This document shows, one piece after another, positions 1,858 through 58,624 of a DNA stretch of 64,000 bases. Every line of letters begins with the position of its first letter. The stretch's first letter is position 1. The translations under genes and the position numbers were made by a program. The notes beneath the pieces were generated by a model, which saw nothing but the letters and a program-made list of their open reading frames with translations, did no database searches and was not told where the DNA came from. The stretch is from Salinigranum rubrum (GTDB lineage: Archaea > Halobacteriota > Halobacteria > Halobacteriales > Haloferacaceae): NCBI RefSeq assembly GCF_002906575.1, contig NZ_CP026309.1:1736001-1800000 (forward strand), in the 5' to 3' direction.

Positions 1858-1999
1858 GGCGGTGGCGCGTGACGGCACGCGGGCTTGCCGCGTGACGCAC
1901 GCGCGAGGGATGAGGGCCGGAGCCGCGAACGCAGTGAGCGGCGAGGACCGCAATCGGCTGGGGAGGGCGTGGCTGCGGTCCACCGCGCCCGTGTCCCGC
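1858..1999 (+). repeat. dispersed hairpin element, copy a (right half only)
   Basis: This non-coding stretch shares three blocks with the elements near 11.7, 49.0, 51.3 and 58.2 kb. They are a GGTGGCGC lead-in, a hairpin (stem CACGCGG/CCGCGTG at 1876-1882 and 1888-1894), and the core CGCGCGAGGGATGA followed by a right arm TCGGCTGGGGAGGGCGTGG ending CGCGCCCGTGT. I cannot find the matching left arm, so this copy looks truncated. It lies between the ABC permeases and the isoprenoid reductase. Function is unknown. Confidence 0.65.
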
Positions 2000-11670: not shown

Positions 11671-11850
11671 GCAGTCGCCAGGGCGGTGATGCCACACCCT
11701 CCCCAGCCGATTCCTTCGCTCAGTCACTCACTTCGTTCGTTCGGTCGCTCAGTCATCCCTCGCGCGGCGGTCCGACCGGAGTCGGACCGGCCGCGCCACC
11801 GCAGGGCCGGTCGGCGGACGGGAGTGAGCGAGTCCTGCGAGTCACCGACG
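11671..11850 (-). repeat. dispersed hairpin element, copy b (inverted)
   Basis: Read on the minus strand this matches the other copies. The right arm appears as TCGGCTGGGGAGGGTGTGG, the core as CGCGCGAGGGATGA and the lead-in as GGTGGCGCGG. The central hairpin has a 9-bp perfect stem CGGTCCGAC/GTCGGACCG at 11768-11776 and 11781-11789, with loop CGGA and outer pairs GCGCGG/CCGCGC. It lies in the roughly 490-nt gap between divergent genes. The remainder of that gap (11438-11670) shows no gene. Confidence 0.65.
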
Positions 11851-48878: not shown

Positions 48879-49003
48879 ACCGCAGGCTACCACCTCCGAA
48901 TTTAAAAGCCCTCGCAGCCCTGTGGAGGTTCGGAGGAGGTGCGCACACCTCCGAGAGCGGACGTGGACCCGTCAACGGAACCGGTGGCTGCAGCGAGAAC
49001 GCT

Positions 49004-49282
49004 GCGCAGTACACGGGCGCGGTGGACCGCAGCCTCGCTCCTCCCCAACCGGTCGCTCGCGCACGGAGGCGCGAGCGGGCCCTCGCGCGCCGTTCGCTCG
49101 CAGGCTCACTCTTCCGCGCGCCGACCGCGACAGGCTGTGCGGTGCAGTGGCGCGTGAGTCGCGCGGTCCCTCCGCGCGACTCACGCGCGAGGGATGAGGA
49201 GCGGAAGGAGCGAACAGAGTGAGCGACTGAGCACCGCAGTCGGCTGGGGAGGACGTGGCTTCGTCGCGTCCGTGTACTGCGC
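49004..49282 (+). repeat. dispersed hairpin element, copy c (complete)
   Basis: The cleanest copy, 279 nt. It is bounded by a perfect 13-bp inverted terminal repeat: GCGCAGTACACGG at 49004-49016 and CCGTGTACTGCGC at 49270-49282. Left arm: GACCGCAGCCTC...CTCCCCAACCGGTCGC. Right arm: TCGGCTGGGGAGGACGTGG, its imperfect inverse. The central hairpin is perfect over 16 bp: CGCGTGAGTCGCGCGG at 49151-49166, loop TCCCT, CCGCGCGACTCACGCG at 49172-49187. The core CGCGCGAGGGATGA follows. No open reading frame is supported. It lies between the divergent SBDS and NifU-like genes. No target-site duplication is obvious. Confidence 0.8.
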
Positions 49283-49413
49283 AATCGCTATCTCGCTCTT
49301 TTCGGTCAGTCTCCCGACAGCCGTAGAACCACGTCGCCATCGCGCAGTCCGCCCTCGTACAGAACACCGACGTCATCAGCGCCCCGACTCCGCGTCCCAT
49401 CCACGGCGAGTAA

Positions 49414-51299: not shown

Positions 51300-51570
51300 A
51301 CCGCAGAGTGTACGGACACGGTGAACCGCAGCCTCACGCCACCCCAACCGGTCGCTCGCGGACGGAGCCGCGAGCGACCCCCCGCGCGTTCACTCGCTCC
51401 TTCGTCGCTCGTTCATCGCGCGCCGACCGCAACCGCAACAGTGCGGGGCGGTGGCGCGGCCGGTCCGACTTCGGTCGGACCGCCGCGCGAGGGGTGATGC
51501 GGCCGAGCGAGCGAAGGCGCGAATCGGCCGGGGAGGACGTGGTCTCACCGCGCCCGTGTACCGCAGGCGG
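51300..51570 (+). repeat. dispersed hairpin element, copy d (complete)
   Basis: About 270 nt, most similar to copy c: left arm GAACCGCAGCCTC...ACCCCAACCGGTCGCTCG and right arm TCGGCCGGGGAGGACGTGG ending CGCGCCCGTGTACCGC. The central hairpin is CGGTCCGAC (51461-51469), loop TTCG, GTCGGACCG (51474-51482), enlarged by outer pairs GCGCGG/CCGCGC. The core CGCGCGAGGGGTGA follows. It lies between divergent arfC and the glycosyltransferase gene, within a 611-nt gap that otherwise holds only the glycosyltransferase promoter. Confidence 0.78.
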
Positions 51571-52854: not shown

Positions 52855-53244
52855 TTACCGCAGGACCCGAACGTCGGTGACGGGTTCGGGGTGCCGGATG
52901 GCGTAGCCGTCGCGGGTCGACCGCATGCCCTCTTCGGGGAACTGCTGTCGGGCGGACTGGTAGGGGCTGTCGTTCCGGGCGGCGGACTGATACGGGCTGT
53001 CGTTGCGTGCCGATTGATACGGGCTGTCGTTCCGGGCGGCGGACTGATACGGGCTGTCGCTGCGTGCCGACTGGTAGGGGCTGTCGCTCGTCTGCGGCGG
53101 GCGCTCGAAGTCCTCGGGCGGGAGGTAGATACGCTCGCCCGACGCCGAGCGGACGACGACGGCCGTGTCGCGGTCGCCCGCCATCTCGATCAGCGTCTCG
53201 CCGTCGACGATCTCCATCGTGAACTCGACGTCTTCGTCGGCCAT
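52855..53244 (-). CDS. DSPYQS-repeat protein
   Basis: A 129-residue haloarchaeal protein. The N-terminal half is a small beta-rich domain (VEFTMEIVDGETLIEMAG, then VVVRSASGERIYLPPEDF). It is followed by five tandem copies of DSPYQSAARN or DSPYQSARN (52955-53090), alternating 10 and 9 residues. It ends EEGMRSTRDGYAIRHPEPVT. No signal peptide or membrane helix. The repeat may be flexible and interaction-mediating. It is convergent with the glycosyltransferase. Function unknown. Confidence 0.75.
   Translation of the reverse strand: MADEDVEFTMEIVDGETLIEMAGDRDTAVVVRSASGERIYLPPEDFERPPQTSDSPYQSARSDSPYQSAARNDSPYQSARNDSPYQSAARNDSPYQSARQQFPEEGMRSTRDGYAIRHPEPVTDVRVLR
52955..53090. repeat. in-gene tandem repeat (30/27-bp alternating)
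   Basis: Five units starting at 52955, 52985, 53012, 53042 and 53069 encode DSPYQSA(A)R(N) on the minus strand. Spacings alternate 30 and 27 bp, so a 57-bp two-unit block has itself been duplicated. Confidence 0.85.
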
Positions 53245-58170: not shown

Positions 58171-58624
58171 ACGGTACACGGCCACGGTGTGACCACACCC
58201 ACCCTAACCGACTCGTTCACTCGCCCCTCGCGCGGTGTCGGGTTGGCGAGACCTGTGGTCTCGCTGCTTCCCGTTCGTTTCGTCGCCGGCGTTGTGCGCC
58301 GGCTTCCAGCGGAACCGTCGGTTCCGCGCGGCTCACGGGAACGCGGACGGAGCCGCGACCGTCACGCGCCACCGCGCCCCGATTACGGTCGGCGCGCGGG
58401 AGCGAGTGAACGAAGCGAACGAGCGGCGTGGGAGGTCTTCGTAGGGGAGCCGAACGAACGGCTCGAAGCGAACCCAGTCGCTTCGGTGGGCCGCGAGCGC
58501 CTCCGTGCGCGAGCTACTGGCGGACGAGTCAGCCAAGCCCTCCGTTCGTTCCCTCCGGTCTCTCACGGAGACACCGGCTGGGGAGGCGTAAGACAGCGGT
58601 CCATCGCGCCCGTGTGCCACGCGG
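58171..58624 (-). repeat. dispersed hairpin element, copy e (long, inverted)
   Basis: About 455 nt. Terminal arms are ACGGTACACGGCCACGG at the left and a right arm CCGGCTGGGGAGGCGTAAG ending CATCGCGCCCGTGTGCCAC. Internal blocks match the minus strand of copies c and d: CCCCTCGCGCGG, GCGCCACCGCGCC and GGTCGGCGCGCGGGAGCGAG. Two hairpins are visible: GCCGGCG/CGCCGGC (58285-58303) and GCGGAACC/GGTTCCGC with loop GTC (58309-58327). The extra length lies between the second hairpin and the right arm. No gene is supported from 58060 to 58749. Confidence 0.68.

Follow-up and report, generated by a model that had tools for sequence, protein, structure and literature searches.

The covarying hairpin pattern that had been reported for positions 49151-49187 of the analysed window (64,000 nt; G000:C1:1736001-1800000, from the main contig of a haloarchaeal genome of 4.97 Mb) was confirmed: the letters of the hairpin change freely, provided that the top strand still folds. 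The hairpin is part of a repeat of approximately 100-280 bases, which is present in dozens of copies per genome in haloarchaea. We favour, with a probability of roughly one half, the explanation that the repeat is a dispersed non-coding element, found in the class Halobacteria and devoid of a transposase, which resembles REPINs and PATEs and is recognised as a folded single strand. The constant blocks of such an element, presented by the folded single strand, would be recognised by a trans-acting factor operating at the DNA level. This factor would spread or maintain the element, as is thought for REPINs and for the IS605-derived PATEs; the element is presumably mobilised.

Structure of the repeat and its copies in the window

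Alignment of the copies revealed a unit of approximately 100 nt with the organisation GCGGTGGCGCG-H2-CGCGCGAGGGATGA-H1-ATCGGCTGGGGAGG, in which H1 and H2 are variable hairpins. The copies of the window, designated a to e, are presented in Table 1. Copies c and d are dimers of two units in a head-to-head, inverted arrangement, and in each of them a covariance model, designated R1, detects both halves; in the genus of the window the left half is often the unit in inverted orientation. The dimers are predicted to fold as a long stem bearing side hairpins, and the predicted folds of both strands are very stable (the long-range fold of copy c has an energy of -189 kcal/mol, z -7). In most other genera the unit is one-sided; such one-sided units are devoid of terminal inverted repeats (TIRs).

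Table 1. Location of the repeat copies and of their parts within the window
Feature	Position	Strand	Evidence or remarks
Copy a, single unit	1859..1973	+	R1 53.9 bits, E 4.4e-12
Copy b, single unit	11691..11802	-	R1 67 bits, E 1.8e-15
Copy c, entire inverted dimer	49003..49283		TIRs TGCGCAGTACACGGGCGCG / CGCGTCCGTGTACTGCGCA, one mismatch
Copy c, left-half unit, inverted	49032..49128	-	R1 32.9 bits, E 1.2e-6
Copy c, right-half unit (H2, constant block, H1, GGCTGGGGAGG block)	49144..49259	+	R1 55 bits, E 2.2e-12
Copy c, H2 hairpin (the stem noted earlier)	49150..49188	+	Sequence, covariation
Copy c, constant block CGCGCGAGGGATGA joining H2 and H1	49184..49197	+	
Copy d, left unit, inverted	51331..51430	-	R1 30.4 bits, E 5.2e-6
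Copy d, right unit	51448..51543	+	R1 52 bits, E 1.4e-11
Copy e, degenerate composite unit	58192..58273	-	R1 28.2 bits, E 1.9e-5

The sequence-only reading of this region had placed the central stem of copy c at the apex of the element; according to the predicted fold and the R1 model, it is actually a side hairpin in the right half of the inverted dimer. Its pairing is perfect, as had been claimed, and is one pair longer (17 bp), comprising GCGCGTGAGTCGCGCGG (49150-49166), the loop TCCCT (49167-49171) and CCGCGCGACTCACGCGC (49172-49188), with 17/17 positions paired. At a match probability of approximately 0.28 per pair, the chance expectation of such perfect 17-bp hairpins is approximately 3e-5 per 64 kb. 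The stems given for copies a, b, d and e were also found as described, the letters differing from copy to copy and the self-complementarity being kept; copy e is a composite, into which extra hairpins have been inserted. The flanks of the stem, said to be held constant, are indeed near-constant among the copies of the window, but several of their letters had been misreported or are variant: copy c has CAGTGGCGC instead of CGGTGGCGC as its 5′ flank, and GAGGGATGA is replaced by GAGGGGTGA in copy d and by GAGGGGCGA in copy e. The flank pattern GGTGGCGC-N10..40-CGCGCGAGGG has 30 matches genome-wide, compared with 0 for the reversed control.

In many other genera, a second structured domain (GGGACTGAAAGGGGC-long stem-GGGGGCTTTC) is located 17-68 nt 3′ of the unit (loci L071, L077, L079, L103, L175, L193 and others); this domain was also found alone. 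It may be a separate repeat, or the 3′ portion of a more extensive element.

Base pairing and covariation of the hairpins

The hairpin pairing score of 181 distinct inserts was 16.2, compared with 6.9 for shuffled sequences, and 124 of these inserts outscored every one of 40 shuffles. Inserts of equal length share a median pairwise identity of only 0.47. The helical antidiagonal carried the strongest covariation in all six gapless groups of equal length, and in four of the six it exceeded the 95% level of a tree-aware null, generated by branch-wise shuffling on a FastTree tree (a simplified implementation of our own of the R-scape idea). Within the group of 44-nt inserts, which includes copies b and d, two pairs were individually significant (E 0.000 and 0.003). 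The earlier proposal that compensatory change reflects selection on structure is therefore upheld by covariation under a tree-aware null.

Changes of the same kind are visible in direct comparisons. Across genera, the pair at the base of H1 occurs as U-A (27 cases), C-G (7), G-C (5) and U-G (2), and pairs of orthologous copies show paired changes, e.g. from GTCACGG/CCGTGAC to GTCGCGG/CCGCGAC. RNAalifold, applied to a MAFFT alignment, recovered nothing of H2 beyond its invariant base, as the variable arms cannot be aligned in this way.

Distribution, turnover and gene context

The R1 model detected 61 copies in G000 and at least 66 in a relative, G016. Matches were obtained in 84 of the 145 sampled genomes of the class Halobacteria, representing 35 of 59 genera, with at most 27 candidates scored per genome, and in none of 50 genomes of the same phylum from outside this class; within one family, the presence of the repeat is patchy. 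A scan of contigs with the strict pattern yielded 104 stretches, and among the matches listed all but one were haloarchaeal by title. The exception (L138; PXTN01000088.1) is a contig assigned by its label to a Bacteroidetes MAG, obtained from a hypersaline sample, and is probably mis-binned haloarchaeal DNA. Among the matches listed, every copy of G000 was placed on contig C1, although contigs C2-C6 account for approximately 14% of the genome; either a restriction to the chromosome or simply an age greater than that of the plasmids may explain this. Carriage by viruses was rejected, since the strict pattern had no match in viral contigs; plasmid matches came from just three records. A literature search with the motif letters returned nothing relevant, and we did not find the repeat described in the papers searched.

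Comparison with three congeners (G001-G003) revealed a turnover of copies by presence and absence. For copies a and b, no R1 match was found at the syntenic site of any of these genomes, and copy c is missing from the syntenic site in all three. Copy d is missing in G001 and G002, and the same gap in G003 is occupied by a one-sided copy, the H2 of which is unrelated. Copy e lies within a stretch of approximately 690 bp that is missing from the three congeners, the syntenic gap in G003 being 3 nt. The copies compared with congeners displayed no clean target duplication and no precise empty site, and the insertions are old. Between congeners, approximately five of the strict copies could be matched as orthologs. 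In some orthologous copies from different species the constant blocks are kept and the adjoining intergenic DNA is unalignable, a constancy that is partly ascertained, since the exact pattern had served to detect these pairs. Blocks kept at orthologous sites are as would be expected of a sequence useful to the host, and this counts against the favoured explanation, as do the missing target duplication and empty site.

The orientation of the copies relative to neighbouring genes looks random (34/29/26/25), and none of 128 neighbouring Pfam families was enriched; a terminator, a UTR or a regulator linked to the neighbouring genes was rejected for these reasons. A replichore-polarised chromosomal signal was rejected on account of the lack of polarity in G000 and G016. 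We also rejected the presence of an own promoter, since there is no consistent AT-rich box: no positionally conserved AT-rich signal was found upstream of the unit, apart from a mild one in G016.

Strand asymmetry of the hairpins

The mismatches within the H2 stems are unequally distributed between the strands: G.T occurs 61 times and A.C 25 times, G.A 155 times and T.C 16 times, these counts including related, non-independent copies and not being equivalent to exact probabilities. The H2 stems also contain 51 tandem G.A/A.G steps. The plus strand folds better than the minus strand in 115 of 134 H2 and 133 of 142 H1 hairpins. The excess of G.A is found in the genus of the window (18 vs 2), in G016 (100 vs 7), in G005 (12 vs 0) and in the named organisms (79 vs 9). 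The excess of G.T is found in the genus of the window (23 vs 8) and in the named organisms (28 vs 13), and is absent in G016 and G019. A duplex cruciform would weight both strands equally, and the asymmetry of the mismatches therefore supports the fold of one single strand, either RNA or ssDNA, as the unit of selection. Of the earlier suggestion that the selected structure is RNA or cruciform DNA, the selection of structure stands, whereas a duplex cruciform is disfavoured.

The hairpin tips are also strand-specific. C(GNA)G triloops occur 39 times, their reverse complement 0 times and GNRA loops twice; in H1, GC(GNA)GC was found in 45 cases and GNRA in one. Some tips are of the C(UUCG)G type, e.g. 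that of copy d. Two points count against the favoured explanation: GNA loops form in RNA as well as in DNA, and the genomes concerned abound in GC-rich GA repeats. GNA loops closed by two G-C pairs are very stable DNA mini-hairpins (PMC4686876), and the triloop preference leans, short of proof, towards ssDNA, which is presumably the selected molecule.

Alternative explanations

Selection of a cruciform or protein-binding palindrome as double-stranded DNA would agree with the inverted-dimer symmetry in the genus of the window and with the high stability predicted for the fold of either strand; it would, however, constrain both strands alike, and the one-sided units of most genera have no dimer symmetry, which makes this explanation very improbable. 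It is also decidedly unlikely that the arms covary mainly by mutation, i.e. that one arm is rewritten from the other by template switching at quasi-palindromes, with no selection of the fold. This process is documented for hairpins (PMC8794818), and several copies differ by replacement of the whole stem (e.g. copy d and its G003 counterpart), in line with the low identity of equal-length inserts. Template switching is, however, strand-neutral and erases mismatches, yet only one strand retains the G.A tandems and the G.T pairs, the loops are non-random and strand-specific, and the basal pairs of H1 change one pair at a time across genera. It may supply part of the compensatory changes, which, given the strand asymmetry, we argue are then filtered by selection.

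It is possible, though not probable, that the repeat represents a multi-copy family of structured ncRNAs or RNA elements in transcripts; the plus strand would then be transcribed, selection would act on the folded RNA, and recombination would have dispersed the copies. The strand asymmetry, with its tolerance of G-U and its tandem G.A pairs, would suit such an RNA, as would the C(UUCG)G-type tips and the additional structured domain that follows the unit in other genera. The arguments against it are (i) the lack of a match in Rfam, (ii) the lack of a positionally conserved promoter signal, except for the mild one in G016, (iii) the random orientation to neighbouring genes, (iv) GNA triloops that greatly exceed GNRA loops and (v) the patchy presence inside one family.

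Candidate mobilising functions

The Y1 transposase domain (PF01797) had no match in the copy-rich genomes G016, G019 and G027, and one match in G000; a RAYT was rejected as the mover, since these three copy-rich genomes have no Y1 gene. The reverse transcriptase domain (PF00078) had no match in seven copy-rich genomes. A retroelement or SINE-like nature was accordingly rejected, and spread via RNA copies is therefore unlikely. None of 30 TnpB loci gave a significant R1 match (best E 0.035), nor do TnpB counts follow the copy number, and on these grounds an IS605/TnpB guide RNA or PATE parent was rejected. The missing Y1 matches and the TnpB loci devoid of a unit count against the favoured explanation.

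Were the selected form folded ssDNA, dispersed with the aid of neither a Y1/HUH transposase nor a reverse transcriptase, a recognition or mobilisation factor not described before would be implied; we consider this stronger proposal unlikely. A mover that is neither of these two enzymes would imply that small palindromic repeats can disperse by a new route.

Comparison with known repeats

The closest known kinds are REPINs and the PATE and SMR repeats of haloarchaea. In REPINs, inverted conserved blocks enclose a spacer whose length and ability to form a hairpin are important, and in which compensatory changes are frequent (PMC3116915, PMC8266576). The repeat described here resembles REP/REPIN sequences in its intergenic location, its tens of copies per genome and its inverted pair of blocks around a variable hairpin with compensatory change. 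It differs from them in (i) the size of the unit (approximately 100 nt, with two hairpins, compared with a REPIN palindrome of 20-40 nt), (ii) its occurrence in the class Halobacteria, (iii) its constant blocks, in which no GTAG/CGTC tag was noted, (iv) the lack of a detectable Y1/RAYT gene in G016, G019 and G027 and (v) the one-sided units of many other genera, which contrast with the inverted doublets of REPINs.

The PATEs of Haloquadratum are transposase-free, heterogeneous and palindromic, they generate no target duplication, and their palindromes match the ends of IS605-type transposons (PMC3119063). Our repeat shares with them the haloarchaeal host, the lack of a transposase, the heterogeneity and the palindromes, but it has no link to IS605/IS1341-type ends, the 30 TnpB loci being without the unit. 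PATEs have no TIRs, and neither do the one-sided units, whereas the dimers in the genus of the window do; at the old insertions compared here, no target duplication was seen. In being short, non-coding and dispersed, and in the TIRs of these dimers, the repeat also resembles the haloarchaeal SMRs/MITEs; the latter differ in that their copies are more than 95% alike (PMC3119063), whereas those analysed here are highly diverged, with no target duplication seen, and the one-sided units of other genera are devoid of TIRs. The strand-specific fold and covariation are reminiscent of multi-copy families of structured ncRNAs, from which the repeat differs in having no Rfam match and no linked promoter or gene context. 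Since it lacks a tested defining feature of REPINs (the Y1 gene) and one of PATEs (IS605/TnpB-linked ends), it was not filed as a member of either.

The repeat thus occurs in over half of the sampled Halobacteria genomes, in up to at least 66 copies, and corresponds to no Rfam family. Compensatory changes are densely recorded in its hairpins, and this natural archive allows the effects of selection, of template switching and of the choice of strand to be told apart; the strand asymmetry makes the choice between RNA and ssDNA directly testable.

Additional sequence features

The H1 hairpins (e.g. positions 49198-49240 of the window) contain GAGCGAACG...GTGAGCGA runs, which are common in haloarchaeal intergenic DNA and are able, on one strand, to form helices that contain sheared G.A pairs in tandem. 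The minus strand of the window also contains, at positions 52855-53244, a 129-aa ORF in which the peptide DSPYQSA(R/A) is repeated in tandem, as encoded by a 57-bp tandem DNA repeat (52949-53062).
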